A stretch of DNA of 64,000 bases from Onthophagus taurus. Taxonomy: Eukaryota > Arthropoda > Insecta > Coleoptera > Scarabaeidae. Location: contig NC_091972.1 in NCBI RefSeq assembly GCF_036711975.1, positions 38,817,001 to 38,881,000 on the forward strand, given 5' to 3'. Positions 14,430-63,544 of this stretch are shown in pieces. Numbering within the stretch: the first letter of the stretch is position 1; every line of letters starts with the position of its first letter. The notes below the pieces were generated by a model. The model was not told the origin of the DNA. It saw nothing but the letters and a program-made list of their open reading frames with translations, and ran no database searches. The position numbers were made by a program, and so were the translations under genes.

Positions 14430-15518
14430 TTACATTCCACCATAATTATTACAAAAATCCGGACACCTTGAAGTATCAAATTGGGATTCATAACATCCCG
14501 AACAAGGATATTGGGGCACCCCGCATCCAAAATAAGGCCAATTTCGTCCAAACGCGCACATCGGACGTTGTTGGGCCGAATAAAACACTTCATTTTGGCA
14601 TCCTGAATTTATCCCTTCGTCGCATACTTCTTCCACGTACGGATGTATTACTTGATTTGATTGACAAACATTATTACAAACCCTTTGAGTTTGATAAAAA
14701 CAGTTTATGTAAGGTATTCTTTGTTGTGGCACGCATTGTCTTGGGGTTGCTATTGTACAACAAGGTGTTGAATCTGGTTGAGGGAAAGGAATCTGATAAG
14801 GTATCGAGTAAGGAAAAGAATTGGGATAAGAATTAGGATAAGGATTGGGCGTATTAGGCGTAATATCCGGTTGATTTATAGTTTGTATAAATCTCTGATA
14901 ATCACCACCATAATAAGTTCCATGATTACCACGTTGCGATGTTAGCACTGTAATGTTATTAAAAGATGTTGTGTTAACATCGACGGGGATATGAATTTCA
15001 TTCGTGTTGTTGATTTCATTATAAACTTCTAAAATCGTTTTGATGTGAGTTGTGGTGTTTTGCGAACTAGATTGATGTCCGGATTTTCCATCTACTTTAT
15101 CTTCGCATGATTTTCTACAACTTCTCCTACAATCGCTGTTTGAACATGCGGAATGGCATGTTCTATAACAACAATAGTGAGTTTGGCAGGTTTGTTGGGT
15201 GTGGCAACAACTGTTACAGTTGTCACTACAACCACTATTAGAACATTGATTGCAGTCACAATTATCGCAGTTTGAAGAACAGCAATTATTACACGTTTCG
15301 GAACATCCACCATAAGAACATTCCTCACATTCGCATTGACTACAATCGTTAGAACAATCCGTGTCTCTTTTTTGCCTTTTAACACAATCAATGTATGTCG
15401 TATAATCCGAAGGGTCGCATGCTTCTTTTAAGTTAGTTTTAGATTCTGTACAATCTAAATTATTTAATCTCCACGCGATTATCGGTGTTAATAGGAGCGT
15501 TAAGTAAATGTACTTCAT
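14430..15518 (-). CDS. Gene F: secreted Cys-rich protein with CC/WPY module
   Basis: This is an intact 362-residue frame in one coding exon. Residues 1-15 form a signal peptide (KYIYLTLLLTPIIA core). Residues 33-51 hold YTTYIDCVKRQKR, ending in an R-x-K-R furin-type site. Residues 55-138 are extremely Cys-rich (CxxC, CC and CRRSCRKSC patterns). An Asn motif follows (INNTNEIHIPVDVNTT, about 169-184), then a Pro/Tyr/Ser linker. The next module is CCTIATPRQCVP...CFYQTQRVCNNVC (253-285), with C-x5-WPY-x2-C at 321-332. The order matches gene G, and the last module also occurs in gene D. The acceptor TTCAG directly precedes ATG, which supports this start. The protein is probably secreted and disulfide-rich; the function is unknown. 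Confidence 0.88.
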   Translation of the reverse strand: MKYIYLTLLLTPIIAWRLNNLDCTESKTNLKEACDPSDYTTYIDCVKRQKRDTDCSNDCSQCECEECSYGGCSETCNNCCSSNCDNCDCNQCSNSGCSDNCNSCCHTQQTCQTHYCCYRTCHSACSNSDCRRSCRKSCEDKVDGKSGHQSSSQNTTTHIKTILEVYNEINNTNEIHIPVDVNTTSFNNITVLTSQRGNHGTYYGGDYQRFIQTINQPDITPNTPNPYPNSYPNSFPYSIPYQIPFPQPDSTPCCTIATPRQCVPQQRIPYINCFYQTQRVCNNVCQSNQVIHPYVEEVCDEGINSGCQNEVFYSAQQRPMCAFGRNWPYFGCGVPQYPCSGCYESQFDTSRCPDFCNNYGGM

Positions 15519-15570
15519 CTGAATTGAAACGAAAATTAAAATAATTGATGATTAAGATTTTATTTCTTAC
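15519..15570 (-). other. 5' UTR intron of gene F (52 bp)
   Basis: The minus strand shows donor GACG|GTAAGA and acceptor TTTCAATTCAG joined directly to ATG. The 5' exon is about 15571-15598. Confidence 0.75.
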
Positions 15571-15595
15571 CGTCAGGTTAAACTACACAAAATAA

Positions 15596-15632
15596 ACTGA
15601 AACACTTAGATAATTCAATCTACAATATATAT
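15596..15632 (-). promoter_or_regulatory. Core promoter of gene F
   Basis: A TATATAT box (15626-15632) lies about 30 bp upstream of a TCAGT initiator (15596-15600, read on the minus strand). This spacing fits an arthropod TATA/Inr promoter and gives a very short 5' exon. Confidence 0.65.
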
Positions 15633-15639
15633 GCGATAC

Positions 15640-16050
15640 GTTTAAAAAAATCATAATCTTCGCGAATGCACCAACCTTGATGCGGAATTTTATTTTACTC
15701 GCTCCAATTAAGTCGGCTAAGAAAACATATCATTCGGAAAATGTACCTGATAAGAAGTTGTAGGGAATTTAGAAAAATCGTTGGTTGCGTTTGTGGTTTA
15801 CTTTCGTGATCTTATTTGACTCATTTAATCCTAAAAAAAATAAATAAATAAAAATTAAGTGAATAAGACAAAAATGAATAAATTAAATTTTAAATAAAAT
15901 TTATTATTTTATTCATTAAATAATTAATGGCAGCATTAAATCTATAAAATTTGACCGATTTTCTTCCGAAAAAATCTTTCATATCTAATCGACACTGTGC
16001 GGCGTTGTATGAAATCACTTATTCGTTTAAATTTAGAAATTAGGTTAATA
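15640..16050. other. Intergenic between gene F promoter and gene A end
   Basis: AT-rich sequence with no gene recognised. It probably contains upstream regulatory DNA of gene F. Confidence 0.35.
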
Positions 16051-16052
16051 AT

Positions 16053-16058
16053 TTTATT
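16053..16058 (-). terminator. Candidate poly(A) signal for gene A (AATAAA)
   Basis: On the minus strand AATAAA occurs about 55 bp after the stop codon of the last gene A module exon. This supports that exon being terminal. Confidence 0.55.
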
Positions 16059-16113
16059 GAAATTGAATTGATTAATTGTGAAGAATTTATGTTGTCGTTT
16101 CATTCTGTACTTT

Positions 16114-19100
16114 TTATGTTGCTCCTAACAAAGGATATTGGCAAAATTGTTGACATGGCATCGGATGGCGGCAATTGTTGCAATCTATAGAGTTATAAAA
16201 CATAATTAGAAAAATTCATTTAAAGTAAGGGGTTCTTATGGTTTACTTACAGACACTGCAAGTTTTTGCACAAGACATGTGTTGTTGGCACCCACTGCAA
16301 ACTAAGAATAATAAAATTTATTATGTTTTAATTTCTGGCGATTATTTTGAAACTTGAAACGATCTTTACTGACTTTTTAACAGTAAATTCATTTAAATTT
16401 ACTGTTGCAAATAGTATTTGAAATTAATTTGAAAAGTTTTAAAGACTCGACGAAATTGTAATCTAAAAAGAAGATCCTGATCATAATATAAGGTCTGATA
16501 CATCGACTAGCTATGAAATATTAATGCAAAAACCATGATATGGATTATAAACATTAGCTCTTTAAGGCCCACTTTTACCATCCTCCTGATAAACTATCTA
16601 GAGGTTACGTAGTTGCCATGGTTACGGTGGTTTTAAGCATTCTCATTGGCTAAGGCTCGTTACTATCATCTTCTGGTTAAGCTATCTAAGGGATTATTAC
16701 CACGGTTACGGCTATTTTGTGCGCTCTGATTGGGTAGTAGATGGGTTTATCTATAAGATAAATTTAACTAAAAGATGGTAGTAATGGACCTAAGAGTTGG
16801 ATTTATCTATGGGATAAATTTATCAAGAGGTGGTAAAAGTGGGCTTAAGTAATTTTGCTTGAAAGATAAGTAGGTTACCGGAATATATATGAACATAGAC
16901 GAATGCAATCTAACGAACCACAAATATTTGTTATATTTTCAACCTACCAGGATATTGATGAGTCCATAAGGCCATTTAGTCTAGACAATATCAGTTTTAC
17001 AAGACATGTATGGACTAAAAACAATATTACAATAATTAAAGATGGTAGCTACATTGTAGAACACTAGTGAGTTACACACTTACATACAAACTAACGTCAG
17101 CTCCAAATATGAAAAAACAAGCGACATGAACTGTGATCATCTTCACAGATATCCAGTCCCTCAGTTATTCTACTACAAAACTTCTTTGGTAGAATATCAA
17201 TTAATCACTCAAAGCCAATGGTAGTAGAATGGTCATCCGGTACAAAATCAAAAATAAAGCTGTGTATCATCAGCGTACAAGTAATAAGAACAATAGCTTA
17301 ACTTTTGAAACAGGTCATTGATGTAAGGTGTAAGTAAAATTGGCTCCATGTTAGAGGCAGTTATGTAACTATTAAGAGAACAACTAGTCCGAGAACCATT
17401 TTTTTTCTGTCAAGTAACCATATAGACAGCGTTCATTTCAGAGACTTGCTTTTCCAATATGAATGTCATCAAGATACAGTGATATGATATCTGCTGAACC
17501 ACTTACCCGAGTGAACATGCTCTAAGGAGGTACTTCCAAGGAAACTAGATCAGAAAGTATGTAATGGAAGCCACCATAGTTGCCTCAAGGTTTATCATTG
17601 GAGGAAGCTTTGCAGTTAAACACATAGCATAGGGTTCGCAATTGATAACACCTGGTAAAGGCAGCGAATTGTTGAGTGGTATTAACTTAGCAAACTGTAC
17701 TTATCATTCAGGTGAGCCTACTTATTTGCCAACCGACAACCAGACGGTGTCGGATCTGCTGGCCTTCTGAATAACATATATAATATAAGACCACATCAAG
17801 AAAGTAATGAAGCAACATTTTAGTAAAAACTATGCTGATTTGGACAAGTTTAGACTAATGCTAGAAAACCTAATTTGTTTAAATGTAAGATGATCTTGAG
17901 GCTTAACCCCAAAATCTTATAGCACAAAATCGAGCAGCTGCAAAGGAGGCTACTCCTGTAGCAAAAGAACAGTCTCCTTTATTTCGTTTTTATTAGAATT
18001 TTGTAGCTCATTGTTGAAGTACGTGGCAATTTAGCCACTCATCTTTAAAAAAATATTGAAAGGTAAAGTTTTGGCATCGTGTTGAATATTAAATAAACGG
18101 CTTGACGAATCAGAATTCTAGTTTGCAAAGTACCTACATGTGTACTGAATAAGTCGTTCAAATTTGAAAAGAATTAGTTCGATAGATTTCGAGATATTGA
18201 TATGATAAAAAAAAGAAGAAAAGCAAGAAGCAGAACATGGTATAAATCCAGAAACGCCACAGTCAAAAGAAAATTTAACCGAATGGGCAATTAAACCAGA
18301 ACTTACCAGAATTTAATCATAGATGCTTCGAAAAATATCTTAATGGTTAAAGTCCGGAAGCAGGTAGAGACTAGATATGCAAATAAAAACATTCATCATG
18401 TTGATATACTTGTTTAATGCTTGCTTGAGATTGAAGCTTGTCTCGCAATGTTTTAAGATTACCCAGATAATTATGCTTAAAAAACTTGACAATCGCCGAT
18501 TTGCAAAATGCATCTATTTCGTTGTTTCCTGCCATTTCCAAATGATTTGAAAGATTACTGTTAATAACTCATCAACATATCAGATTTCCAGATTGGATTT
18601 TGTAATCGCCATTCTACAATAGATAACGTGATACTCGTAAATAAAGTATTTGAAGAGCAAAAATACTGTTTCAAAGACGTTTGACATGATGTGACACCAG
18701 AGACTTGTCTACAACAAACTACTGGAATCATATTTTTCTGAAAGACAGTTTGAAGTGTTACATGATGGGGTAAAGTTAACATTCAAACCAACCTTGGCTA
18801 GAGTTTCACTCCAATATCTACTGTTTATTGCAGATATTCCTATTTCAAATTGATAACATCGTTGCTATGGTAAAAGTTTCAACTCAAATGGACTCAGCTG
18901 GAAATCGGTCCATGCCTATTTTGTGATAACCTGTGTTTCTTGGATTTCTCGAGCAGATTGTATAAAATATCTCGATTTTAATGGCAGATTGAACTGGACG
19001 CATGATGTTAGACAAAAAGCTAAGCAGATTAGACTCAAAAGTAGACATATATTAGCCGGTAGATGCTTCCAACTTGATCTGCGATCAAAAAGACTAGTTT

Positions 19101-22100
19101 ATCGGTCTATAATTAAGTCTAATTAATTGATCATTCAAGTAGCCAAACAATTTCTTAGACTGATTACCATTGCTTATCGTTACATTGCGAACTGCATGAT
19201 TACCTCAAACCCAAATAGGTCTACGAAGAGATCCAAAATATCACAGCGACACACGTAAAAAACCTGATGCGATATTCCAACGTTGAAGTCATTCAGCTCA
19301 TGGGCAATATCAAAGAACTCAGAAGATCGAAGGAAACTAAACTTAATCAACTTTTATAGTGTCAGGATTAAATTTAGTTTAAATTTATAAAAGGATTTCA
19401 AAAATTTCATCCACGATTTGTTATAAGGCTAATCGCAGTTAGACAGAACCCGAATTATGTCTTATTCTCCTTCTACTCTTCATGAAGTTCAACGATGGCT
19501 TTTTGGTTGATTAAAGTCAAGTTCTTGTTGTGTTCCATGCAGGAATCACCTCGAACAGTAAACAAAACTTTCACACAATGCAATCTTATTTTTGTTTGAG
19601 GATGTAAATGTTAAAGAAGTAGTTATAAATAAATAAATAAGCGTTATTGCATGTAGAGAACATTTTCCATAGATGGATAGGACAGCTTTGTTTACGTTTG
19701 TTGTTTTCTCTGAGACAAAAAATATAAATAGGTTCTATCATCTTTCTTGCCACTGACGTGAGATGTTTGAGAACGCTGTATACAAGTGGGCTGTGTTAGA
19801 TAAATACTGCAACATCTGTTCCTGGTTGCCAAGAGATTGATATCATCATCAGCACGACTCTATGTTTCTATGGTGACGATTTTCATTCAAATTGTTCTTC
19901 TTTGCGGTAGCCATATTGGCTTGATCTACGCATTCTGTTCTGTCAGCATTTCTTGTGTCAACCAGTTATCTTTCAATGTTTTTAGAGGTCCCCACCATCC
20001 TTTTGGTTTCCGCTATCTCTGTTCGCACCTTCACAGCATATATCATTATCCATACTTTGGTCCTGGTAGATATGCAGTTGTTTCTCCAGATCTTAGTGAT
20101 TCTTAGTACTATTTTGAGTGATTTGTTGACCTGTTTTTTACATTTTTCTTGGATTTTCTATAAGACGGGCTTATGCCCAAATAAATGTAGTCTGTTAATT
20201 GTCTTATCATGTTTCCTATCATGTTGTCCTATCATCTAACTTTAAACTCGGCATCATATTGCGTTAATATTTCTAAATGTTTTTCCCATTCATCATATAG
20301 TCACATCTGTAAACGTATTATGGAGTTACCAGCTGTCTGAGCTTCTAAAGTGTACAGGTTTTGCAAATAGAACTTCTGGCATTGGCTTTGTAACCGACCA
20401 AAATATAAAATATGTATAAAATATAAAAATATTTGCATTTGCACATGCAAGAACATGTGTGCCACAAATCAAGAGGTTTATGTCAGCAAACAACTTAAAG
20501 AATTCTTTGAAATTCAAATTCATCAAAATCTTACGAGCCACTGCCATTCGTCTTCTTTGAAGTAGATTACAACATTATTATTTCAGCCATCCTTAAAAGA
20601 TTTTAATAGATAACTTTTATAATCTGAATTTTATGGAACACCTGTATATATAACATCTTTTTTTTTTAGTTTCTTTTCTTACATTTTAAAGGTTCAAAAA
20701 TCTTTTTGTAAGTACTTACTCGTTCCTAAATGTTGTTGACAATTCGAAAAACATTGAGTATTTGGTTGGCAACGTTGACACACTAAATAAAAAATAAAAC
20801 TTAATTCCTTTTAATACACACCTTTCAATACTTACATGAGTTGTAATGTGCATTGCACGATGAAGCACAAGGAAGGTGACCACCACAATTTTGGCACACT
20901 AACAATTAAAAATCTTTTTATAATTATTAAAAAATTATTTTTATTTCACTTACTTGTGTTCATAAAATGAGAACAAGTTTGGTGACACGGCATATGAAAT
21001 TGGCACTTTGGGCAAACTATAAATAAAAAAAATTTAGACTTCTAAAAAATTATCGTGTTCGTTTATCTTACCAACTTCAAAGTGTGGTCTGCAATTTTGG
21101 AAACATGCCAAGTGATTTTGATGGCAATTTTGGCAAGCTGAAATGAAACGATATCAGTTTGATGTGGTAAATTATTCATTATATTACTTACATGGTATTA
21201 TTACTGGATATGGAACTGGTACTTGAACAGGAATGTGAACCGGGTTGTTAACAACTTGAATCTCCTTAAATGGTACGGGAACCGGAGTCAATTTATCGAC
21301 AACGATCGGTACACTAACAACGTTTTCAATATAATGGGGTACTGGAACTGGAACTCCAACCGGTTTTTCAACAACCGTTGGTACTTGCACTGGTACGTGC
21401 TGGGTTATGTATTCCGTGTGTTTAACAGGATAAGGCATTGGAATTGGTTTATCAATATACGTTGGAACATTTACTAATATATACTTGTAGTGAGTTTGAT
21501 TAAATGGTATGTAATAAGGAATTGGTCTATCAACTGGTACTTGTACTGGGTATACTATAGGCCTATCTACGGGTGATAATACAGGTACGTATTGGGTGTT
21601 ATTAATGAAATACGGCACTGGTTTTACAATTGGTACTTCTACTATTTTCTCAATAATTTTAGTTTCATTAGATGGAACCGGAACGTATACTTTTTTCTCT
21701 ACAACTTTTTCCACTTCAACTAGTACTGGTCTATCAATATAATACGGAACTCGAATTATTTGTACGTTAGTACCATTAGGTCCTTCATTAATTTGTGAAG
21801 ATTTGCGATCTGCTACAGAATGTACTAATATATTATTTTCGTTAATAGTTGTTACATTAATAGGGTTATGCAAAGTATTGTTTTGGTTAATTTCGTTTGA
21901 AATTGTAACTGTAAGATTCGATTGGTTTGGCACAGATTTCTTGTCATTAACGATAACCGTTTTTTGTGTAGAATCAATTAATTCAGTTTCGGATTCCGTT
22001 TTATTACTGGAACAAATGATGTCTTCACAGTTGCAGTTGTTGCAGCGGTTACAACACGGTGGGTTTTCATAACAACAGGTTTCAATTGAACAACTCGAAC

Positions 22101-22176
22101 AACATCTCCTATTACAATGTGCGAAAGTTAGGGATATAATTGGAAGAAGGAGTAAAAAGGTTATTAGATATCTCAT
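16114..22176 (-). CDS. Gene A: secreted Cys-rich/Val-Pro-repeat protein with Cys-module microexons
   Basis: Proposed exons on the minus strand are 22176-21192, 21137-21072, 21016-20954, 20898-20836, 20782-20720, 16301-16251 and 16184-16114. They give 453 residues. Residues 1-19 are a signal peptide, and 20-55 are Cys-dense (CCSSC, CCNRCNNCNC). NNTLHNPINVTTINENNI lies near 99-116, and 142-328 are Val-Pro repeats (VPVDRPIPYYIP, VQVPTVVEKP). Six small exons each add one module of the type C-x2-C-x5/6-C-x3-C. All coding introns are phase 1 with GT/AG borders, and every junction restores a codon. The first five exons are close together. The last two lie 4.4 kb away and could instead be remnants of a neighbour, but phase, module type and the ending shared with gene B favour one gene. 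The function is unknown. Confidence 0.75.
16562..16848. mobile_element. TTAA-flanked MITE inside the gene A intron
   Basis: TTAAGGCCCACTTTTACCA at the left matches the inverse of the right end, GGTAAAAGTGGGCTTAA, over about 28 bp including GATAAA. TTAA at each end suggests a piggyBac-type target. The interior has weaker internal copies of the end (for example near 16770-16795). Confidence 0.65.
17050..17420 (-). mobile_element. LINE reverse transcriptase fragment (YADD)
   Basis: On the minus strand near 17345-17240, the frames read PYINDLFQKLSYCSYYLYADDTQLYF. This contains the Y-A-D-D catalytic motif and the preceding YIND pattern of CR1/L2/jockey-type RTs. Stops follow. It lies within the long gene A intron. 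Confidence 0.7.
18950..19370 (+). mobile_element. Jockey-type LINE C-terminal fragment
   Basis: The plus-strand frame 18923-19126 reads KYLDFNGRLNWTHDVRQKAKQIRLK, then DLRSKRLVYRSIIK. This is the connection region after the RT palm in jockey-like ORF2. Shifted frames to about 19350 give EEIQNITATHVKNLMRYSN, the typical C-terminus. It is a dead fragment. Confidence 0.7.
19800..20240. repeat. Dispersed repeat shared with 59400-59870
   Basis: The phrase ggtagatatgcagttgttt and flanking text recur at about 59730, with looser similarity over several hundred bases. It is probably a decayed transposon. No conserved protein was recognised in its open stretches. Confidence 0.45.
20720..21137 (-). repeat. 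Array of four Cys-module exons in gene A
   Basis: Exons of 66, 63, 63 and 63 bp are separated by introns of about 53-56 bp. Each exon starts with two bases, encodes one module (for example CPKCQFHMPCHQTC or CQNCGGHLPCASSC) and ends one base into the next codon. Such symmetric exons can be added or lost without disturbing the frame. Confidence 0.8.
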
Positions 22177-22244: not shown

Positions 22245-22410
22245 AAACGATGAACTCTAAATTCAATTAATCCAAGTTCATACTGTCTAAGATCAGTTTA
22301 CTACTGACCAATCTTTTTAAAAATTTCTAAACTTAAGCTTTCTCCCACATTCTTTCCGAAATAAAAATAGTTTCTTTTTTCAAGCCAAATCTCCCACATT
22401 TATAATAAAT
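22245..22410 (-). promoter_or_regulatory. Gene A upstream block shared with gene E
   Basis: On the minus strand a TATAAATG box (22404-22397) is followed by GGAGATTTGGC, AATGTGGGAGAAAGC, TTTTTAAAAAGATTGGTCAG and ACTGATCTTAGAC. The same words occur in the same order upstream of gene E (27775-27640), and the distance from TATA to ATG is nearly equal in both (about 225 bp). Confidence 0.65.
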
Positions 22411-22439: not shown

Positions 22440-22940
22440 TAATTCCAATTTGTTACACAACAAATATGTTTAATTTGAAGGTCGTGTTGAAATATTATTA
22501 AACTAGTTAAATCTACGTTTCGGTGAAATTACATAACCTTTTTTACGTTTATTTTCACATTTTTGCTAGTTACGAAAAAATATGCGCGAATACTTGCATG
22601 TATCATGGTTGATGTGAGAGACATCAAACATGATGTTTAGGTATGTGATGAGCAAGATCTTGAGGGAGACAAAGACAGTCACTGACAAATACCGTGGATT
22701 AGGTTAAGAGATGTCAGTGAAGACGCAAAGGAAAGCCATAATGATATTGAGGTAAACCTAGTATACATAGATATCAAAGACGATGTTTAGGATCATCCAA
22801 TACTGCGATAACAGATGATGACTACAATCTTGAAATATATCACAATAATGTGGAGAGATATCATAGACAATTACGACGAAGGTAAGGATCTATGTTGATG
22901 AATATCACTGAAGACATTGAAGGATACTGCTACAACGTTT
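22440..22940. repeat. Left part of a degenerate GATGTT-rich repeat field
   Basis: From about 22600 the sequence consists of eroded phrases like gatgtttagg, atatcaaagacgatg and gagagatg. It continues after the Penelope-like insertion at 24250. Confidence 0.5.
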
Positions 22941-24245
22941 ACAACGTGCCAGATCTGGTGGAGTATTGCTTATCGTCGACGTATTTCAGCTGGAAAGGAG
23001 AATGTTACGAGCAGTTCGAAGGGACAGCCATGGTATCTCCACTATCACCAGTTATAGCTAATTTCTACATGGAATTATTCGAAGAGGACGCTTTGAAGAA
23101 GAGCCAGTGGAAACCAAAACTATGGCTCCAATATGTGGATGACACGTTTGTGATATGGCAACATGGTCAAAAACGGCTCCAAGAGCTCTTGGATCACTTG
23201 AACTCTCAACACCCTATGATTAAGTTCACCATGGAAACAGAAACTGCCAAAAAATTACCTTTCCTAGATGTGTTGGTCACCAGGACGACAAATGGAGATA
23301 TAGAACTTGGTGTATACCGAAAGAAGACCCATACCAACAGGTATTTACAGGCATGTTCATATCATCATCCCCAACAGAAGAGGTCCGTGATCCGTACATT
23401 ATTTCAGCGAGCAGCGAGACTATGTGAAGGAGAGAACTTGAAGAAGGAGCAACGCTTTCTACGAGGCGTGCTGCAGAAGAATGGATACACTTCGAGGGAC
23501 ATCAACCAGGTCATCAAGCAGCGAAATCAGAAAGAGGACACGGTAAGTACAAAACTACTTGGATTTACCTGTCTTCCCTATGTTTCAGGTGTAACGGAAC
23601 GAATTGCTAGGCACCTCAAGAAGAACGACATCGTAGTGCGGTACGGCACGGTTAGCAAAATTCGGAACACACTCCCGATAGCCAAGGACAAACTAACTCC
23701 ATTAAAAGGAGCGGTGGTCTACCGACTATCGTGTAGTTGTGGGAAGGTTTATATTGGCCAAACTGGACGCAATGTCGAGTGCTGCATCAATGAGCATTAG
23801 AGGGATGTAAGGCTGAAGAAGATCCAGCAGTCGGCGGTTGCGGAACATTGCCATACAAAGGGACACCGAATAGACTTCGCACAAACAAAGGTGCTGGCTA
23901 GGGACAACAGATACTACCAAAGACTGACAAAAGAAGCCATGGAGATCCACCGACATAAAAATAACGTCAACAGAGAGGATGGCTGGGAGCTTAGCAGAAC
24001 ATGGAAGATTGTGGTGAACACGAAGACCTCTTCCCGCCTCACACCGGACGCAACGCAATTAGTTAATAATTAGCTTATAATTAGCGTTAACTGATTATTA
24101 ATTAGTTTTTCCGACTTATATATAGTTACCGATTTTTGATCACGTCACTTCGAACCAGTTTCTGAAGAAGGTTGCAACATGGCATCCGAAACGTCAAACC
24201 TTTTATTAAAAGACGCACGGCAAAACCCAAAAGTTTCTAGTGTTA
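22892..24245 (+). mobile_element. 5'-truncated Penelope-like element (RT plus GIY-YIG)
   Basis: One plus-strand frame from about 22940 to 24073 is interrupted only by a TAG at 23798. It starts mid-RT with VEYCLSSTYFSWKGECYEQ and EGTAMVSPLSPVIANFYMELF, followed by WLQYVDDTFVIW (catalytic YVDD) and KLPFLDVLVTRT. At about 23710-24060 it has the GIY-YIG endonuclease: VVYRLSCSCGKVYIGQTGR, then AEHCHTKGHRIDF and EAMEIHRH. The usual GTAMGSPLSP has G replaced by V. The RT N-terminus is missing. A 3' region (24075-24230) precedes a hexamer tract. Confidence 0.9.
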
Positions 24246-27264: not shown

Positions 27265-27549
27265 TCACTCACTTTTAGGGCAAGTGCAGGCACAAACGCA
27301 TGGTGCAGGTACAGGACAGGGTGTTGACAGAGGACACGGTGTAGGTTGTGGACACGGTATAGGTACAGGTACCTCGACACGAATAGGCTGTGGCTCAAAA
27401 ATAGGACATCGTGGACGTATAGAATATGGTACAGGGATATTTTCAGTTTTATCCTCGTCGGGTTTAGTCGGAAACACAGTTGTACTATTTATTCCAATTA
27501 TATTGTATATAATTATGAAAACAAATAAAAATATAATTGAATATTTCAT
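27265..27549 (-). CDS. Gene E: small secreted Pro/Cys protein
   Basis: This frame of 94 residues starts at 27549, where a splice acceptor (TTATCCAG) abuts ATG as in its relatives. Residues 1-20 form a signal peptide (KYSIIFLFVFIIIYNIIGI). The rest is PTKPDEDKTE and then Pro-rich sequence with regular Cys: VPVPIPCPQPTPCPL, TPCPVPAPCVCACTC. It lacks the long Cys block and the Asn motif of A and B but shares their Val-Pro style and gene A's promoter. The end is uncertain. The frame stops soon after CPK, but AAAA|GTGAGT at 27273 is a good phase-1 donor, so one more exon may exist. Confidence 0.7.
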   Translation of the reverse strand: MKYSIIFLFVFIIIYNIIGINSTTVFPTKPDEDKTENIPVPYSIRPRCPIFEPQPIRVEVPVPIPCPQPTPCPLSTPCPVPAPCVCACTCPKSE

Positions 27550-27634: not shown

Positions 27635-27775
27635 AACGCAATTTCGTATAGTCTAAGATCAGTGACGTTCTGATCATCCTTTTTAAAACATTCAACACCC
27701 ACGCTTTTCCCCACATTGTACACAAAATAAATATAATTTTCTTATTGATGCCAAATACCTCCGATATTTATACTT
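27635..27775 (-). promoter_or_regulatory. Gene E upstream block shared with gene A
   Basis: On the minus strand the order is TATAAATATC (27772-27763), GGAGGTATTTGGC, AATGTGGGGAAAAGC, TTTTAAAAAGGATGATCAG and ACTGATCTTAGAC. It corresponds closely to the gene A block at 22245-22410. Confidence 0.65.
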
Positions 27776-31654: not shown

Positions 31655-32570
31655 CACTGGCGGAAATCAGTACGAAGTTGTTTGAATTAAATGCAGTTTT
31701 TTGAAATGATTCAAAACCGATGACTCGATAATACCCTTTGCTTAGAGTGGTGTGATTGTTAAGGGGAGTAGCAAAACGGGGGTTGTGTAATGGAAAACAG
31801 ATTACTTATGGACTATCGCGAAAGCCTAAGAGGAAGTCAATTCTTGGGATGAGAGAAAGCAGAGTCCCATATAGCTTATTGATGAAGTGGGTACTTGGAT
31901 CTAGCTGAAGACGACAAAATCATTTTTATGGGATATTTGGAATATATAGGGAACAAGATAAGTTATGATGGGAAGTAAACTTTGAATAGTAGTACAAAGT
32001 GAGAGTGGGCAAAGCGCTTTACACTCTAAACGGTTAGAAATTCTTACTGTATAGTTTGAGGTGGAACAATAACTTAGGTAAAAATAAGGAAATTAAAACA
32101 TTCTCATTTTACAAATATATTTATTTCTTTTTAATTTGTTCTTACTTTCAATTTCCATTTTTAGTATTACAACATATTAACACAACAATTCATTCCAATA
32201 AAATAATAAATAATTTTAGCAACTAAAATGGTATGGACATCTACGCTGAATGAATAAAGAGAGAATCGGAGGTGGTGGGTCTTTAATATGACAGAGTATA
32301 TGTACAGGAACCGGTACATAAACATTTTTAACCTCGTCGGGTTTAGTTGGAAACACTTGTACTATTAATTCCAATCATGTTGTATATAATTATGAAAACG
32401 AATAAAAATATAATTGAATATTTCATCATTTCCCCCACATTATACGCAAAATAAAAATAATTTCCTTATTGTTGCCAAATATCTTCGATATTTACAAAGA
32501 TTTTATTCAAATTTAAATTTACATATTATATTTAAAAAATTTTATTTTCTACAAAAGAACGGTTTAGAAC
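31655..32570. repeat. Segmental duplication, copy 2 (contains pseudogene E')
   Basis: This is a direct, shortened copy of 26325-27830. It holds a dead copy of gene E and a foreign insert of about 42 bp at 32227-32268 that matches the LINE fragment at 34079-34120. Confidence 0.7.
32270..32426 (-). pseudogene. Pseudogene E', decayed copy of gene E
   Basis: The minus strand from 32426 begins with the same signal peptide as gene E (MKYSIIFLFVFIIIYN) and INST. A small deletion then shifts the frame, giving a stop where gene E reads TVFPTKPDE. The Pro/Cys tail is replaced by unrelated sequence. The 5' UTR exon end and intron are also missing: the promoter-like TGTGGGG block joins almost directly to ATG. 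Sequence resembling the gene E TATA region remains near 32488-32500. Confidence 0.75.
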
Positions 32571-32760: not shown

Positions 32761-33478
32761 TTAACACTTTAACAAACCCCCTTCACACGCTAAAAAGAAA
32801 GACAGTTCTAAATAATCTTATAAATTTTTTATAAATAATTACTTACGTGATTGAATTCGAGGTTTTTGTGGGTTTTGTTGGATATTTGTTGGATGTGTTA
32901 AATGATATCGCTGAGGTGGTATGTAATAATAATAATTGAAAGGAATTTGATTATTTCGATAATATAAGTTTGGATTTTCAAATTTTGGAGTTAAATTAGT
33001 TTTTGTTTGATTTTTGGTTTCGTTTTTATTAAAATTTTCAGTTTTAGGTTGAAGAATTTTTTCGTTTATTGTTATATCATCATTGATTTCAGCACTTGCA
33101 ATAATTTTAATATTATTTATACTTGTACTAAAAATCCTAACGGGATTTTCAATTTTTTGTGCATTCCTCAAGGTATTATTTATCTTAATAGAGACGTCAA
33201 CATTTCCTTCAAACGATTGTGTTAAATTTCCTTTATATGGATACGATATGTTTTCTTTTTTGCATTCTTGTACCCAACACTTCTCTTGGCATTCTTTCGT
33301 TAAACATTTTATTTTGCACATTCTCAAACAGTCATCATCTTGTCCAACACACCAATTTATTATAATAGAAAAACACCACAATTTTATTATTCTTAAAAAA
33401 ATTATCTGTATGAAATTAATACAAAGAAGTAATTTATTAATTAAAAAAATTGAATATTGATTCATTTTTTACCTTCAT
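32761..33478 (-). CDS. Gene C: secreted Cys/Asn-rich protein
   Basis: Proposed exons on the minus strand are 33478-33473, 33405-32847 and 32789-32761, giving 197 residues. The tiny first exon codes only Met-Lys. After the first splice (ATGAAG|GTAAAA, acceptor CATACAG) the protein continues IIFLRIIKLWCFSIIINWC, a clear signal peptide, which is why this start is preferred to the unspliced ATG at 33465. Residues 28-50 have six Cys (CLRMCKIKC, CQEKCWVQEC). Residues 77-102 have INNT, NPVRIF and SINNIKI, the cluster's Asn/Ile motif. The tail is Tyr/Pro/Gln-rich. The final phase-1 exon adds PCEGGLLKC. The poly(A) signal AATAAA overlaps the stop codon region (32756-32761), so the 3' UTR would be very short. 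Confidence 0.75.
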
Positions 33479-40225: not shown

Positions 40226-40954
40226 ATGGCATCATCATTTCTTTATTATTTTTTATTTTTTCTTATTGAAGTTGTGTCATCGACGAAAAATTCGTCAGCT
40301 ATTATTCGTATAATCAACGATCAAGTAAATATAAATACGTTAGATTTATCGAATGGAAAACTAACAACAAACGGAAGAGTAATTGAAGTTTGTTGTGAAA
40401 TTTTATCACCAAAATGTGAATCGATATTTGATCCGTATCTTCGATTTTCTTGCACGTATTCTAAAGAAACTAAATGCGGAGACGTTTGTCTTGAAAACAA
40501 ACAGAACGAGAAAAAAAAATTAGGATTACCTACAATGAAAAAACAAAAATCAAAAATTAAACTTCCTAAAAATATAACAACGATTCATCAAAACGGTACT
40601 AATAATAATATTGAATTAAAAACGCTTAATACAGATTATAATAAAACAATTTTGAATTATAAACATTCACCTATAAACGTTTTAAGAATTAATTGTATGT
40701 GCGTGTACGTAAATTATTGGCCGTACATTTTTTGCAATTACAACAATCGTATAATGTCGAATTATTATTCCTATTGTAATTATTACTATTATTATCAGAA
40801 TACAATGAAAATTTGTCCTCTGGTATGCGAAAATAATAATTATCATAATTACAATTATTATAATAATCAACTTCCGTGCAACGATTTTTATTCTTGTTAT
40901 AATTATTATGCATTATTTGGGAATAGATTTGGAAATGTGCCATTAAGAAAATGA
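40226..40954 (+). CDS. Gene D: secreted Tyr/Asn-rich protein with CC/WPY module
   Basis: This intact 242-residue protein is on the opposite strand to its relatives. Residues 1-19 are a signal peptide (SSFLYYFLFFLIEVVSS). Residues 56-88 read CCEILSPKCESI, then DPYLRFSCTYSKETKCGDVC, matching the CC...SP..C...P[FY]..C...C..C module of F (253-285) and G (239-271). C-x5-WPY-x2-C follows at 159-170, also as in F and G. The N-terminal Cys-dense block is missing. A basic linker (KKQKSKIKLPK) and an Asn-rich segment separate the two modules. The C-terminus is rich in Tyr, Asn and scattered Cys. AATAAA occurs at 40993 and 41006. The function is unknown. Confidence 0.85.
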   Translation: MASSFLYYFLFFLIEVVSSTKNSSAIIRIINDQVNINTLDLSNGKLTTNGRVIEVCCEILSPKCESIFDPYLRFSCTYSKETKCGDVCLENKQNEKKKLGLPTMKKQKSKIKLPKNITTIHQNGTNNNIELKTLNTDYNKTILNYKHSPINVLRINCMCVYVNYWPYIFCNYNNRIMSNYYSYCNYYYYYQNTMKICPLVCENNNYHNYNYYNNQLPCNDFYSCYNYYALFGNRFGNVPLRK

Positions 40955-48649: not shown

Positions 48650-49700
48650 TCATCTTGTCTGAAATAAATTATGTCGGCATTGGTGGTAACATGGCATCCA
48701 TGGTTGACATGTGTTGGAACAAACTGCAACAGATCAAAAAATTAATATACCAAATAAATAATTTTAAGAAATAGATTAAAACTTACAGTTTTGACAACCA
48801 TTAAAACATGGCATCCTATGGTGGCAATTAAAACAATCTGCAAGAAATATTTTTATTATGAATAAACAAAATTATAAATAATATCCAATTAAACTTACTA
48901 TTTGGAAGATGAACATATACAGGGTATGGTCGTATTTGTGGAACTGGATATGGGTGAGGTACTGGAACGGGTTGCGGGAGTGGATGAGGAACTGGAATCG
49001 GTTGAGGAACTGGAACCGGTTGCGGAACTGGGACCGGTTGAGGTACAGGATGAGGAACCGGAATCGGTTGAGGAACTGGAACTGGTTGAGGTACTGGATG
49101 AGGAAATGGAATTGGTTGCGGAACAGGACGGTCTACAGGAACAAAATGATGAATCGGAATAGGATATGGTCTAGGATGTGGTACAGGAATAGGTAAGGGA
49201 TGAGGAACAGGAACGGGTACTTTTTCTCGAACGGGATAAGGTACATACACAGGATGAGGTTGTGGTACCGGAATAGGTTTATTAATATATACAGGATGAG
49301 GAATATAAACAGGTTCAGGAACAGGAACGGGAACAACTAAACGTTCAGATTTTCCACCATTCTTGGTAGAACTAGATGGATGTAATTTTATGTTATTTTT
49401 ATTAATGGTTGTAACATTAATGGGATTTTCAATGGTGTTATTAACAGTAACAATATTATCAAGGGTCAATCGAAGATTGGAATTGGATGATGATGTCGAA
49501 TCGGAATTGATTATAACTGTATTATTTTTAATTGCTTCTTTGTTACAATCATCACCACAATTTGACTCTTCACATTCACAATCACAATCCGAACATCTTT
49601 GTATACATCTTGAACAATTGTTACTACATCCGCCACAGTTTCCATGTCCCCATGCCAAATATGTCAGTGATAGTAACAGAATTAATATTGAGATCCTCAT
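48650..49700 (-). CDS. Gene B: secreted Cys-rich/Pro-repeat protein with two Cys-module exons
   Basis: Proposed exons on the minus strand are 49700-48899, 48837-48787 and 48723-48650, giving 308 residues. Residues 1-18 are a signal peptide, and 22-52 are Cys-dense (CGGCSNNCSRC, CSDCDCECEE). NNTIENPINVTTINKNNI (87-104) is nearly identical to gene A. From 122 to 267 it is almost wholly a Pro/Val/His/Gln repeat with units like PVPQPIPVPHP. Two phase-1 exons then code CFNCHHRMPCFNGC and CSNTCQPWMPCYHQC. The 51 bp second exon has the same length as the penultimate exon of gene A. An acceptor (TTAACAG) abuts ATG, and AATAAA follows the stop. An unspliced reading would instead run into intron sequence after LPN. 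The function is unknown. Confidence 0.85.
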
Positions 49701-53000: not shown

Positions 53001-53110
53001 GATGCAAATTGTGTCCAAAGCATCATAACAACGCAACTTATGAAAGCGAAGAAATAATCAAAGGCTCACTAAAAGTAGGTTAAATTTGCTTTAAAAAGCT
53101 TTAAATCTTA
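50080..53110. repeat. Tandem array, about 366 bp unit, 8 copies, dimeric inside
   Basis: The word gcgaagaaataat recurs at 50114, 50480, 50846, 51212, 51579, 51944, 52312, 52679 and 53046, a spacing of 365-368 bp. Each unit contains two related halves of about 183 bp, each with agaataaatttgcttta followed by gatatctcaatt and gagata. The array is non-coding and lies between genes B and G. Confidence 0.92.
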
Positions 53111-53149
53111 TTCTGATATTTTAATTAATTTTAGCGATTTAATGCGTTT

Positions 53150-54084: not shown

Positions 54085-55462
54085 TTATACACTTTCGTTG
54101 GGTTTAGTTTTAACTTCAACTCGAACAAGTTCCGGCGCAACTGGTTCATTATTCAATTGATTAATTTCAATCGGTATCGTTTCAGAGATATAATTCTCTT
54201 GGGAAGTACCCACAACTCCTTTATTACCAAATAAATTCTCATAATTAGTTCCATCGACATCTCTCGAAACGCTATAAAAATTCTCCAACCCATAAGATAA
54301 TGGGTTGTACTGATTAAAATTATAACCGAAGTTTTGGTATGGGGCAAATTGATTGGGGTATTGTCCATAAGGATACGAACCATATGATTGACCAAGTGAT
54401 TGAGGAAACGGACCAACATTATACGAATTATCCATACTTTGTATATTACAACTAACGTAGGGCCAAACATCCAAATAAGTACATCTTGGTTGTGGTTGTG
54501 GTATATAAATAATTTGATTATGACAGTTTGGTGGTCCAGATGGATTTTCATCGCAGATTTGATGGGTTTGGGTATGCATTATTTTCGCTTGACAAATATT
54601 TCCGCAAACCTAAACAAATACAAATTGATTATAAAAGTTAATTGTTATTTAAAATGTTTCTATTTACCTGCTGCCTGTAATGGAAACACTTCATAAAGGG
54701 AAATTCAACTTGTGGTACACATTGTCTTGGACTAATTACTTGACAACAATTATTTTTCTCTTCTGTGGTGTTCTCATCATTTTTATTAATTTCGGTTGAA
54801 TCTTCAACATTTTCTTTAATATCTTCATTATTCTTCTCATCAGTTATTTCATCAACGTTTTCATCTATTTTTATATCACCATTTTTATCGATTTTTGAAT
54901 CATCATAAGCCTCAACAAAACCTTGATCATTTTGAATCAAATCAGCTTTATCCAAAGTAATATTATTAATATTTTTTGTTTCAATCTTAATGGGAAGATC
55001 CAAAATATTCGTATTATTAATTTTATTATGTAAATTAATAACCGTTGTAATATTCGGAGTTAACACAATACCTTCTTGAACCACCTTCTTCTTCTCATTT
55101 ACATTATCCTGACAAGATTTTCTACAAGTTCTTCTACAATCTCCAGAACTACATTTCGAGTGACACTTTTTGTAACAACAATACGAAGTTTCGCATGTAT
55201 CGAAAGAAATCTCACAACAATTATTACACATTTCGCTGCATTCGTTTTTCTCGCAATACGAGCAGTTACATTCGTTGCAGGGTTCCGAATTGCAAACTGA
55301 ACGTTTCATTCTTTTTTTTGTTTGTAAACATTCTATGTAAGCATGATATTCTGTTTCCGGGCAAAGCTCTTCCGGATGCTCTTCGATTAAACAACCTTCG
55401 GAGTTTACGTAAACGATACAAATTGTTTGTAATAGAAGTAGATAAATTATATGATGACGCAT
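54085..55462 (-). CDS. Gene G: secreted Cys-rich protein with CC/WPY module, paralogue of F
   Basis: Coding exons on the minus strand are 55462-54668 and 54609-54085, with a 58 bp intron (CAGCAG|GTAAAT, acceptor TTGTTTAG), giving 439 residues. The splice rebuilds HYRQQ-VCGNIC, aligning with FYQTQRVCNNVC of gene F. Residues 1-20 are a signal peptide. YHAYIECLQTKKRMKR (39-54) ends in an R-x-K-R site. A Cys block follows (57-117, ending CRRTCRKSCQDN), then INNTNILDLPIKIETKNINN (148-167). Next is an acidic Asp/Glu/Asn-rich stretch absent from F, the CC module (239-271) and C-x5-WPY-x2-C (308-319). The C-terminal part is Gly/Tyr/Pro/Asn-rich. An acceptor (TTTTTAG) abuts ATG, so an upstream non-coding exon is expected. 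Confidence 0.88.
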
Positions 55463-55616: not shown

Positions 55617-57985
55617 TAAGATGCATCTGAGGGCAAAAGTGTTAGAGAGCAATGTGTAAAGGGTAAAATTTGCTACAACTTTTGTTCTAAAACTTTTTCT
55701 GTATCATGCTCGGAATATCGTTTTTTCTTCATTAGACAATAATTGTGTAACTACGATTTCTTTTAATTTTCATATTTTCGAATATTTCTCTACATTGATG
55801 CATCTGAGAGCAAAAGTGCTAAAAAGCAATAGGTAAAGTGTAAAATTTGCTACAACTCTTGTTCTGACAGTTTTTCTGTATCATGCTCGGAATACCGCTT
55901 TTTCCATTAACCCATTGTGAAACTACGAATTCTTCTAATTTTCATATTTTCGAATATTTCTCTACATTGATGCATCTGAGAGCAAAAGTGTTAGATAGCA
56001 GTGTGTAAAGTGTAAAATTTGCTACAACTTTTGTTCTAAAAGTTTTTCTGTATCAAGCTCGGAATACCGTTTTCTTGTCCATTAGCAACTTGTGAAGTTA
56101 CGAAATTCTTCCAATTTTCATATTTTCGAATATTTCTCTACACTGATGCATCTGAGAGCAAAAGTGTTAGAAAGCAGTGTGTAAAGTGTAAAATTTGCTA
56201 CAACTTTTGTTCTAAAAGTATTTCTGTATCAAGCTCGGAATACCGTTTTCTTTCCATTAGCAACTTGGGAAATTACGAAATTCTTCCAATTTTCATATTT
56301 TTGAATATTTCTCTGCATTGATGCATCTGAGAGCAAAAGTGTTAGATAGCAGTGTGTAAAGTGTAAAATTTGCTACAACTTTTGTTCAAAAAGTTTCTCT
56401 GTATCAAGCTCGGAATATCGTTTTTTTCCATTAGACAATTATGAAACTACGATTTCTTTTAATTTTCATATTTTCGAATATTTCTCTACATTGATGCATC
56501 TGAGAGCAAAAGTGCTACAAAGCAATATGTAAAGTGTAAAATTTGCTACAACTCTTGTTCTGACAGTTTTTCTGTATCATGCTCGGAATACCGTTTTTTT
56601 CCATTAACCCATTGTGAAACTACGAATTCTTGTAATTTTCATATTTTCGAATATTTCTCTACATTGATGCATCTGAGAGCAAAAGTGTTAGAGAGCAATG
56701 TGCAAAGTGTAAAATTTGCTACAACTTTTGTTCAAAATGTTTTTCTGTATCAAGCTCGGAATACCGTTTTTTTTCCATTAGCAACTTGGGAAATTACGAA
56801 ATTCTTCCAATTTTCATATTTTCGAATATTTCTCTACATTGATGCATCTGAGAGCAAAAGTGTTAGATAGCAGTGTGTAAAGTGTAAAATTTGCTACAAC
56901 TCGTGTTCTAAAAGTTTTTCTGTATCCTGCTCGGAATACCGTTTTTTTCCATTAACCCATTGTAAAACTACGAATTCTTGTAATTCTTATATTTTCGATT
57001 ATTTCTCTACATTGATGCATCTGAGAGTAAAAGTGTTACAGAGCAATGTGCGAAGTGTAAAATTTGCTACAACTTTTGTTCAAAATGTTTTTCTGTATCA
57101 AGCTCGGAATACCGTTTTCTTTCCATTAGCATCTTGGGAAATTACGAAATTCTTCCAATTTTTAATATTTTCGAATATTTCTCTATATTGATGCATCTGA
57201 GAGCAAAGGTGTTAGATAGCAGTGTGTAAAGGGTAAAATTTGCTACATCTTTTGTTCTAAACGTTTTTCTGTATCAACCTCGGAATACCATTTTTCTTCC
57301 ATTAGCAACTTGTGAAATTACAAATTCATCCAATTTTCATATTTTCGAATATTTCTCTACATCAGCGGTTCTCAAACTTATATCCTTGCGTACCACTAAG
57401 GCTATTTTAAAAATCAGGTAAGTACCACTGAACAAAAAAAAAACAATAATGATAATCCAAATATAAACTGTTTTGCGTACCACTTGAGAACTTCTCGCGT
57501 ACCATCAGTGGTACGCGTACCATAGTTTGAGAACCACTGCTCTACATTGATGCATCTGAGAGCAAAAGTGCTAGAAAGCAATATGTAAAGTGTAAAATTT
57601 GCTACAACTTTTGTTCTGACAGTTTTTCTGTATCATGCTCGGAATACCGTTTTTTTTTTCCATTAACCCATTGTGAAACTACGAATTCTTCTAATTTTCA
57701 TATTTTTGAATATTTCTCTACATTGATGCATTAGAGAGGAAAAGTATTAGAGGGCAATGTGCAAAGTATAAAATTTGCTACAACTTTTGTTCTAATAGTT
57801 TTTCTGTACCATACTCAGCATACGGTTTTTTTCCATTAGCAACTTGTGATATTACGAATTATTCCAATTTTCATATTTTCGAATGTTTCTCTTCATTAAC
57901 GCATCTAAGAGCAAAAGTGTCAGAGAGCAATGTGTGAAGGATAAAATTTGCTACAACTTTTGTTCTAAAAGTTTTTTTCTTTCGA
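55617..57985 (+). repeat. Tandem array, about 174 bp unit, 13-14 copies
   Basis: gatgcatctgagagcaaaag recurs near 55797, 55969, 56145, 56320, 56493, 56666, 56841 and onward, spaced 172-176 bp. Other unit landmarks are aaatttgctacaactt and ttttcatattttcgaat. It begins about 150 bp upstream of the gene G start codon and is interrupted by a hAT-like MITE at 57363. Confidence 0.93.
57363..57539. mobile_element. 177 bp hAT-like MITE inside the satellite
   Basis: CAGCGGTTCTCAAACT at the left and AGTTTGAGAACCACTG at the right form a classic hAT-type inverted repeat. The 8 bp target duplication ctctacat is exact (57355-57362 and 57540-57547). Removing the element restores a normal satellite unit. 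Confidence 0.92.
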
Positions 57986-58265: not shown

Positions 58266-58269
58266 TTTA

Positions 58270-59395: not shown

Positions 59396-59399
59396 GTCG

Positions 59400-61671: not shown

Positions 61672-61674
61672 TAC

Positions 61675-62195
61675 ATAATTAAAAAACCAATAAAATGAGT
61701 TCAAACTTAACACATCTAGGTATTATAACACCCAGATATATTTATTTTTATAGAAACAAGATGGCCGAAAACAAAACACAAACAAATTGCGCCATCTATG
61801 CTTTTAGACATGAATTTTATAACATATATAGGATGTGATATATCAAATTGGGTTAAAATATTCTGATTATTACGAAAATGTTAGATAAATATGAAAATTA
61901 TTGATTTTCTTTTCGCCATATTTATTTGCAATTATATTTTTTATAAATATAGAGTGTGATGTTTCAAGTTAAGTTAGAATTTTGTGATCTTTACAAAAAT
62001 CTTAATCTTTTTGATATTTTTAAAAAATTTAAAACGCACTCGATTTTAATCCACATTTTATTATAAACTCATCAAAATTTAAGAAAATAAATAAGTTTTG
62101 GCATGGGGCCTTTTCTTAAAAGCCGACTGCGATGACTAATAAGAAAAACAATTAATTTGATATCTATGACCTAAATAGATAATAAATAGTAAGAA
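61675..62195. other. AT-rich, no gene recognised
   Basis: Nothing supported. It lies between the palindrome and the orphan first exon at 62202. Confidence 0.35.
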
Positions 62196-62201
62196 GCATA
62201 C

Positions 62202-62293
62202 CTTGTTTTATTTTAGATCCGTGTCTAATTCGAATAGGTTTCGTGCACCTGTAAACTAACGATCGTTGTTCTTATTAGTTACTACGACCGGAA
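62202..62293 (-). other. Orphan non-coding first exon, possibly of gene G
   Basis: On the minus strand a start region (TCATTCC near 62293) is followed by about 90 bases without a useful ATG. It ends in AAAACAAG|GTATGC, a good donor. The next minus-strand coding exon with an unpaired acceptor at its start codon is gene G at 55462, 6.7 kb away. The exon could also belong to a gene that was lost. Confidence 0.5.
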
Positions 62294-62310
62294 TGAAACG
62301 AACAATGGCT

Positions 62311-62316
62311 TATATA
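62311..62316 (-). promoter_or_regulatory. TATA box of the orphan first exon
   Basis: TCTATATAAGCC on the minus strand, about 20-25 bp upstream of the initiator-like TCATTCC. Confidence 0.6.
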
Positions 62317-62319
62317 GAA

Positions 62320-62880
62320 ACACCCATTCATTCGTATCTTGGTATTATCGTTTTTTGCTTGGTTCTCACTAAATACAAGGTCATGATTTAAGAAGGGATG
62401 AATTGTTTGAAACGTTTTTACGTGTTATTTTATTTACCTTGATTTTGTTATTTTTTTTCGGCAGATAAGATGCCCTTCAATGATTTTATAAAGCATACAA
62501 AAAAATCTTACAAAACCAGGAAAATACATTGTGAAATTAACGAATCCTAATAAGAATTATAAGAAAAATGTTCAGATTCACATTGTATCAATGAGGTAAT
62601 TATGTTATCGCTATATTTAAATAAAAGCTATTTACTATTCTTTTTCGGTTTGTTTAAACGGAAAAGTGATAAGATTCTTCTAAAAAACTTTCGCGAAATT
62701 TGTTTTATTACATTTATTTTTTTATAAACATCAGTCGTTTAAAAATACATCATTCCTTAGGTGTTATATTACATAATAAAGTAATGAATTACTCAAACTC
62801 AAAACAACATTTTATAAATTAACTCAAATGATTAAGCTTGCTAAGAAAACTTATATGTTAAAAAAATATATTAATGTAGT
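62320..62880. other. Intergenic between orphan exon and gene H
   Basis: AT-rich; no gene was recognised. Confidence 0.35.
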
Positions 62881-62889
62881 ATTTTTATT

Positions 62890-63544
62890 TTAGTCTATTT
62901 TATTATCTTCCTCCTCTTCAGCTGAAACGTCATCTTCAGCTTCATTTTTTTCAGTATTTTCTGAAAATTAATATTTAATTATAATCTATTAATTATTTAA
63001 TAAGTTATTTTACCATTTGCTCCACGTTTATTATGAATATTATTATTAGCAAATAAAGGCAATTCTATAAAAAGAAAAGTCATGTTATAAAACTCATTTC
63101 TAAATTTGCTTTTATTACCTGGAATTGGAAGTCCTGAAAAAGGAGGTTGTGGTGGCCAGAATGCTAAAAAAAATAAATTAATTTCTAAATTTTTATTTTA
63201 ATGATAAACTTACGGTACGGGGCTGAATACGGTGCAGGATACGGTGCTGGATATGGTGGTGAATATGGTGGATATGGTACTGGTGGAAACGATGGATATG
63301 AACCTGAAAAATAAATAAATTATTCTTAATTAATTATTAATTTCGTGTATTGAATAGAAGAGATTAATTTATCTAACAATAAGATATTTACCGTATTGAT
63401 TTATTGGGATATGTGGTGGAATAAATGATGATGGTATATCATTAATATCTAAAAAATGAAAGTAATTAATTGGATTTTTTTTTATTAAATTAATATGAAA
63501 AATCTTACTAATTCCATCTTGGATGATATTAATAGGTAAACTTC
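62890..63544 (-). CDS. Gene H: Pro/Tyr-rich protein made of phase-1 microexons (partial, 5' end unresolved)
   Basis: Six exons on the minus strand, 63544-63509, 63448-63392, 63303-63214, 63163-63119, 63064-63014 and 62960-62890, are 36, 57, 90, 45, 51 and 71 bp. Five GT/AG introns of about 49-60 bp separate them. All are phase 1 and join in one frame. The joined text starts SLPINIIQDGI, has PSSFIPPHIPINQYG and then PY/AP repeats (PPYPAPYPAPYSAPY). It goes on with FWPPQPPFSGLPIPE and ends in an acidic tail (AEDDVSAEEEEDNKID). AATAAA abuts the stop codon. No signal-peptide exon was found up to 64000, so the start is probably beyond the window or in an unseen exon. The architecture resembles A and B, but the sequence has no Cys modules. 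Confidence 0.7.

Follow-up and report, generated by a model that had tools for sequence, protein, structure and literature searches.

Micro-exon genes of schistosomes encode secreted proteins from short symmetric exons, and chorion genes are clustered. According to the available part of one source, some chorion proteins have a high Cys content and hydrophobic regions in which Pro, Ala, Val or Leu abound (PMC13409908). The available part of another describes the aphid bicycle genes as having ∼17 exons on average, with exons that begin at codon position 2 (exon phase 2), and two CYC motifs in many, though not all, of their proteins (PMC9168663). Here we describe a cluster of secreted-looking Cys- and Pro-rich genes, designated by letters, in which an Asn-Ile motif recurs, from the scarab beetle Onthophagus taurus. 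The window is a stretch of 64,000 nucleotides (contig NC_091972.1, positions 38,817,001 to 38,881,000 of the forward strand); positions are counted from its first base, and the same numbering is continued into the DNA on either side.

Extent of the cluster and its shared motif

The family cluster is real and larger than first described. Seven genes with open frames (C, A, H, F, D, B and G) lie within the window, together with a frameshifted copy of H and the six final exons of an eighth gene, J (62890-63544), and the “eight or nine genes” of the first-pass annotation are reached in the window by counting these two pieces; the end coordinate given there, 63544, falls on the base where a J micro-exon begins. 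Two further cluster genes, I and K, lie to the right, and the cluster extends ∼27 kb past the window. On the minus strand are C (14.4-15.5 kb), A (16.1-22.2 kb), H (27.3-27.5 kb), F (32.8-33.5 kb), B (48.7-49.7 kb), G (54.1-55.5 kb), J (62.9-69.6 kb, with its 5′ end beyond the window) and I (∼83-84.6 kb, beyond the window), and on the plus strand are D (40.2-41.0 kb) and K (from 90.8 kb, also beyond the window).

Within the window the motif is encoded on the minus strand in C (14934-15059), A (21805-21927), F (33088-33210), B (49365-49487) and G (54941-55063). The near-identical strings reported for A and B, NNTLHNPINVTTIN and NNTIENPINVTTIN, are both present. To score the motif, whose borders were picked by eye, each protein was left out of the profile that scored it, and 3600 shuffled family proteins served as decoys. 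Nine genes (C, G, I, J, A, B, F and two distant relatives, L25 and L26) score 34.3-67.5 bits, which none of the 3600 shuffles reach, the top shuffled score being 13.8-16.7 bits depending on the run. The similarity claimed among the five window genes thus proves significant (C 43.7, A 47.9, B 46.5, F 36.0 and G 53.8 bits), and it stays so with the HMMER composition correction switched on (27.9-37.5 bits; all nine genes 22.9-45.2 bits, best decoy 10.7). Since G, I and J are closely related, F (36.0 bits) and L26 (34.3 bits) are the harder tests. The K motif scores 18.9 bits, above all 3600 shuffles, but 7 of 2628 decoys reach it when the corrected score is used.

Two properties of the motif go beyond its profile score. 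In the 13-codon block around NPINVTTIN, A and B differ by six synonymous changes and one replacement, A and L25 by eight and none, and B and L25 by eight and one; differences that are almost only synonymous speak for selection at the protein level over recent gene conversion. The nine motifs also hold 25 N-glycosylation sequons against a shuffle mean of 15.9, a count reached in 7 of 2000 shuffles.

The two distant relatives were found by searching this one genome (290,825,966 bases in 33 contigs). L25 lies at 7.138 Mb on contig C7 and is 48% identical to B across the motif region (E = 3e-10), while L26, at 10.544 Mb on contig C1, has E = 0.02 by single-sequence search in addition to its held-out profile score. 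L25 is a link within the family, in that its motif is worded as in A and B, its six-Cys segment is that of the C and G group and its repeats are of the Pro-Val type. Beyond these genes, searches with motif-bearing queries gave no convincing extra member; the family count is a lower bound, as the genome searches score the best candidates only. A match to D at 36.669 Mb on C7 (E = 0.014) has one internal stop, with no Cys micro-exon pattern at that site, and other genome matches are weak (E = 0.29 or worse). A stretch of 301 bases taken at a weak match on contig C3 shows no Cys head in any of the six frames, B has Pro-rich matches at 1.1-1.9 kb, and no open gene is present at a match at 60.4 kb.

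Predicted start-codon introns and single-phase tails

Of the 10 cluster genes, 8 (C, A, B, G, H, J, I and K) have an acceptor-like AG immediately ahead of the ATG, an arrangement seen at 544 of the 7629 ATGs that the same 214 kb of DNA contain. In D the AG lies 2 nucleotides before the ATG, and F has its intron after ATGAAG; among the distant genes, L26 has a predicted intron after the ATG and L25 an AG 14 nucleotides upstream. Start-codon introns are, as predicted from sequence, common to the family. A, B, H, I, K and L25 each have a first coding exon that breaks off after one base of a codon, as the core exon of F also does, and in the seven tailed genes every tail exon begins after one base of a split codon (A 6/6, B 2/2, J 8/8 and one each in F, I, K and L25). 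In four of these seven genes, A, B, F and L25, a Cys codon follows directly on the split one. A single intron interrupts G, within the CC module.

The first coding exon of A (21192..22176, minus strand) encodes the hydrophobic N-terminus, the Cys-rich head, the motif and a Val-Pro spacer, and ends one base into a codon at GTAAGT. It is followed on the same strand by micro-exons at 21072..21137 (66 nucleotides, CxxC..CxxxC), 20954..21016, 20836..20898 and 20720..20782 (63 nucleotides each), then, past a 4.4 kb intron, by a fifth of 51 nucleotides (16251..16301) and by the terminal exon with the stop (16114..16184). The fifth is assigned to A from its phase and from a matching exon in B. That long intron contains a reverse-transcriptase-like stretch, recognised by eye, and a 57-amino-acid open reading frame (ORF) on the minus strand at 18513, with a hydrophobic start behind an AG.

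The B gene, also on the minus strand, is built in the same way from a first coding exon (48899..49700) with hydrophobic N-terminus, Cys head, motif and Pro/His/Val repeats, which ends one base into a codon, a 51-nucleotide tail micro-exon (48787..48837) and a terminal micro-exon with the stop (48650..48723). The tail exons of A and B each encode four Cys, approximately as CxxC..CxxxC, the last of B reading CxxxC..CxxxC. A search pattern modelled on the exons of A has eight matches in the window, where 18 of 20 shuffles gave none and two gave one. Over the 214 kb it has twelve, the eight real ones and four others (two in a trypsin-inhibitor-like gene, one at 69019 on the plus strand and one inside the exon of I), and one more occurs in the head of L26.

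J starts at 69637 on the minus strand, beyond the window, and its eight tail exons stay open through to a 489-amino-acid protein. Exon 5 (63509..63544) appears to join the upstream part across a 4.8 kb intron and is followed on the minus strand by exon 6 (63392..63448), exon 7 with Pro-Tyr repeats (63214..63303), exon 8 (63119..63163), exon 9 (63014..63064) and the terminal exon, with an acidic end and the stop (62890..62960). As a phase control, candidate exons were counted in phases 0, 1 and 2: the 3′ region of J gives 7, 9 and 3 on the minus strand and 1, 0 and 0 on the plus strand, the A region 2, 4 and 3 and 1, 0 and 1, and the B region none on either strand in any phase. These counts make the strand clear, with phase 1 not the sole open phase; phase 1 was preferred on the grounds that it carries on the frame of the preceding exon and runs to a stop.

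H has only a first coding exon in our model (27273..27549, minus strand), short and Cys/Pro-rich, with an A-like leader, no motif and a donor one base into a codon, downstream of which no exon was found. Its upstream DNA (27639..27772) matches that of A (22273..22404), both on the minus strand, over 134 columns at 72% identity (E = 2e-16), the next best pairs reaching 34.6 bits, the self-match of G aside. The second, frameshifted copy of H (32219..32426, minus strand) shows tblastn matches in two frames.

Other shared modules

The first-pass annotation held that the C-terminal halves differ completely, a reading that arose because single ORFs were read across splice sites and introns were missed. 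In fact A and B share Cys micro-exons, and C, G, J and D share CC and WPY modules. Nor is the motif the only common part, as the start-codon intron, the six-Cys segment, the CC and WPY modules and the Cys micro-exon tails are also shared, in overlapping subsets. What does hold up is a local, secreted-looking family whose members keep a small core in common while the rest varies. The sequences establish a predicted core (hydrophobic N-terminus, Cys head, Asn-Ile motif and start-codon intron) as common, with differences in what follows.

C is a single coding exon (14430..15518, minus strand) of 362 amino acids with 42 Cys, in the order hydrophobic N-terminus, KRxKR site, six-Cys segment, Asn-Ile motif, CC and WPY modules. 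In G, exon 1 (54668..55462, minus strand) carries the hydrophobic N-terminus, KRxKR site, six-Cys segment, motif and start of the CC module, and exon 2 (54085..54609, minus strand) the remainder of that module, the WPY module, a Tyr-rich end and the stop. By hand count, some seven bases separate the positions of the introns in the CC modules of G (54610-54667) and J (68869-68924); the two introns differ in phase, and C has none there. D, on the opposite strand (40226..40954, plus), has CC and WPY modules, its motif not being significant. The minus-strand F gene starts with ATGAAG followed by an intron (33473..33478), continues in a core exon with six-Cys segment, motif and Tyr/Asn stretch that ends one base into a codon (32847..33405) and closes with a terminal micro-exon (32761..32789). 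A Cys-dense segment, reported to follow the N-terminus in all five motif genes of the window, is there behind a hydrophobic stretch in each, in F only under this splice model.

Module borders, like those of the motif, were picked by eye, and module scores are best-domain scores without composition correction, compared with 3600 same-composition shuffles. The six-Cys segment scores 20-50 bits in C, G, J, I and L25 (I 29.2, L25 20.0) and 15.1 in F in held-out profiles, with 0, 0 and 1 shuffles reaching the scores of L25, I and F. Its spacing, C-x3-C-x3-C-x4-C-x3-C-x3/4-C, is found in these 6 of 12 proteins and in 6 of 12000 shuffles of the six, a spacing that was derived from the same sequences. 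The CC module scores 32-51 bits in C, G, J, K and D, 19.0 in I (one shuffle) and 9.3 in L25; the WPY module 17-27 bits in C, G and J, 14.3 in D (no shuffle) and 0.6 in I; and the pro-segment with KRxKR 16-23 bits in G, I and K (I 16.4, no shuffle), 11.5 in C (one shuffle) and 2.6 in J. Three assignments fail the shuffle test, the CC module of L25 (23/3600), the WPY module of I (629/3600) and the pro-segment of J (126/3600). With composition correction, whole-protein scores are poor or negative for the CC module in I (-29.9) and L25 (-31.7), the WPY module in D (-0.7) and I (-29.1), the six-Cys segment in I (-22.4), L25 (-19.7) and F (7.7; 1/2913) and the pro-segment in C (-1.1), J (-5.8) and I (2.7).

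Genomic surroundings

A TMA7 gene was expected as a neighbour, and it is indeed present on the plus strand around 6967 (Pfam E = 2e-28). Further left, at about -8.8 to -8.2 kb, lies a gene fragment, locus L018, that encodes three domains of the trypsin-inhibitor-like type (Pfam TIL, E = 1e-28). Between B and G is a tandem array (50101-53126) of 8.3 copies of a 366-bp unit with 91% matches, and a second array of 173/348-bp units (55620-57976) stops ∼160 bp before the start codon of G, so that the upstream region of G is partly array. Retroelement pieces include reverse transcriptase at 22886-23797 (below the Pfam cut-off) and 41174-42025, and RNase H at 38382-39248. Elsewhere in the genome, four small contigs show no recognisable mitochondrial DNA over their first 10 kb. 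The chromosome ends bear TTGGG repeats; O. taurus is listed among beetles with this telomere repeat in the accessible part of one source (PMC8233369), and the repeat is present in other insects too, as stated in the accessible part of another (PMC12564400).

Proposed function and its alternatives

We favour, at slightly better than even odds (∼0.55), the reading that these clustered, secreted-looking Cys/Pro-rich proteins are building blocks of a disulfide-linked extracellular matrix or secretion. It is suggested by the hydrophobic N-termini, the 5-12% Cys, the Pro-rich spacers and the repeated Cys tails, and eggshell, gland secretion and a brood-chamber lining are all possible products compatible with the sequence. 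In such a system the Cys head would fold into a disulfide-rich helical unit, the Asn-Ile motif would serve as a glycosylated linker and the Pro-rich stretch as an extended spacer, with further, interchain disulfide bonds formed by the Cys tail modules, so that the protein mixture could set into a matrix, coat or glue. A furin-type protease may remove a short N-terminal pro-segment at KRxKR in C, G, I, J and K before assembly. Tail exons of a single phase could be duplicated, lost or exchanged without a break of frame. A more specific, and doubtful, proposal is a cassette system, in which a fixed head exon with its start-codon intron, sometimes with shared upstream DNA, would be followed by a single-phase acceptor zone where tail exons duplicate, swap and vanish, and the co-expressed matrix proteins secreted by one gland or follicle would share their anchoring head and differ in their mechanical tails (Val-Pro, Tyr-rich or Cys-clasp).

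An AlphaFold2 model of the G head, made from five window sequences, shows the six-Cys segment as two helices (block predicted local distance difference test, pLDDT, 68-79). Several observations weigh against the matrix reading and its parts. The same model is poor overall (mean pLDDT 50.5, predicted template modelling score 0.32) and leaves the motif without structure. Signal peptides were judged by hydrophobicity alone, and none of the database matches backs a matrix role. D and H lack the motif in the held-out profile test, C and D have no micro-exon tail, and the similarity of the pro-segment is marginal in C and weak in J.

The absence of a named family, as first noted, agrees with our Pfam searches, in which no family exceeded the cut-off in 8 + 3 queries (K, I and L26 left out) and the sole sub-threshold match was to GTP cyclohydrolase II (E = 0.066). 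The PDB gave nothing for C or for the motif profile, and for the A tail five insignificant matches (E = 0.22 to 0.68). Our literature search found no paper on the family, from which we do not claim that none exists.

Secreted defence or immune proteins are an unlikely alternative, in which the products of a fast-diversifying Cys-rich cluster would bind microbes, whether from dung or from the body surface, and be processed at KRxKR like many peptide precursors. In C, G, I, J and K a Cys lies within three residues after KRxKR, and in four of these the Cys-rich part follows. The neighbours are also highly diverged, with nonsynonymous divergence (dN) of 0.48-0.65 in the six pairs of C, G, I and J over 140-152 codons; synonymous divergence (dS) is undefined in five of the pairs and 2.75 in the sixth, and with dS mostly undefined we claim no dN/dS ratio. 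Against a defence role, most of the proteins are large, from 197 amino acids in F to 489 in J (the first exon of H encodes ∼92-94), with long Pro, Tyr or Asn stretches, and no Pfam match rises above the cut-off.

It is similarly improbable that the family is real but that the far exons of A (16.1-16.3 kb) and J (62.9-63.5 kb) are separate genes. The intervening introns of 4.4 and 4.8 kb invite this view, as do the ORF at 18513 in the former, with its hydrophobic start behind an AG, and the room for a short first exon in the latter, the part of which beyond the window was scanned for Cys-rich ORFs or AG-ATG ORFs of more than 90 amino acids. Yet phase and frame are consistent through to the stop, A and B agree in having a penultimate exon of 51 nucleotides and modules of the same type, and neither the motif nor a Cys head occurs in the 18513 ORF.

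Clusters of fast-diverging secreted proteins are common among reproductive proteins, and seminal fluid or egg-coat recognition, with diversification by sexual conflict and not mechanics, would account for such a cluster here, but no feature of the sequences points to a reproductive role and we give this reading a lower chance still. That the similarity is a by-product of Asn-, Cys- and Pro-rich composition in unrelated genes is very improbable, since for all the strong bias (Cys 5.1-11.6%, Pro up to 21.3%) and the negative corrected scores of several short modules, no composition-matched shuffle reaches the motif score, the nine genes keep their scores under correction, and intron position and phase are independent of composition. 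The shuffles reject a low-complexity artefact for the motif genes, with the exception of the weak single assignments (the CC module of L25, the WPY module of I and the pro-segment of J).

Comparison with known systems

The nearest known design that we found is that of the aphid bicycle genes, putative effector genes that are likewise lineage-specific, highly diverged and presumed secreted, with many small internal exons of which nearly all have a single phase, as far as the available part of the source describes them (PMC9168663). The beetle tail exons start at the second codon base, which equals the bicycle phase if that part of the source counts from 1 and not from 0. Unlike in bicycle genes, the beetle head is one long exon and the largest model has 10 coding exons; the insect order is different, and the beetle is not a gall maker. 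The CYC motif of many bicycle proteins is found in none of the 12 beetle family proteins. We do not assign the beetle genes to the bicycle family. Schistosome micro-exon genes belong to a different phylum, and the likeness is one of description.

Insect chorion and vitelline proteins are alike in that some are Cys-rich with Pro/Val-rich regions, within what the accessible text covers (PMC13409908), but the beetle proteins have no Pfam chorion or vitelline match above the cut-off. TIL-domain protease inhibitors (PF01826) are also Cys-rich and secreted, and one sits ∼23 kb from gene C; that neighbour matches the Pfam TIL model, whereas the scanned family members do not.

Should the family's product be a coat, glue or eggshell, it would offer a non-parasitic example of similar design and a tractable model for how new structural proteins arise through change of tail exons on a conserved head. 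As judged from sequence, the family appears to be an uncharacterised, diversified and secreted-looking one with single-phase tail exons, a known kind in a new variant form.

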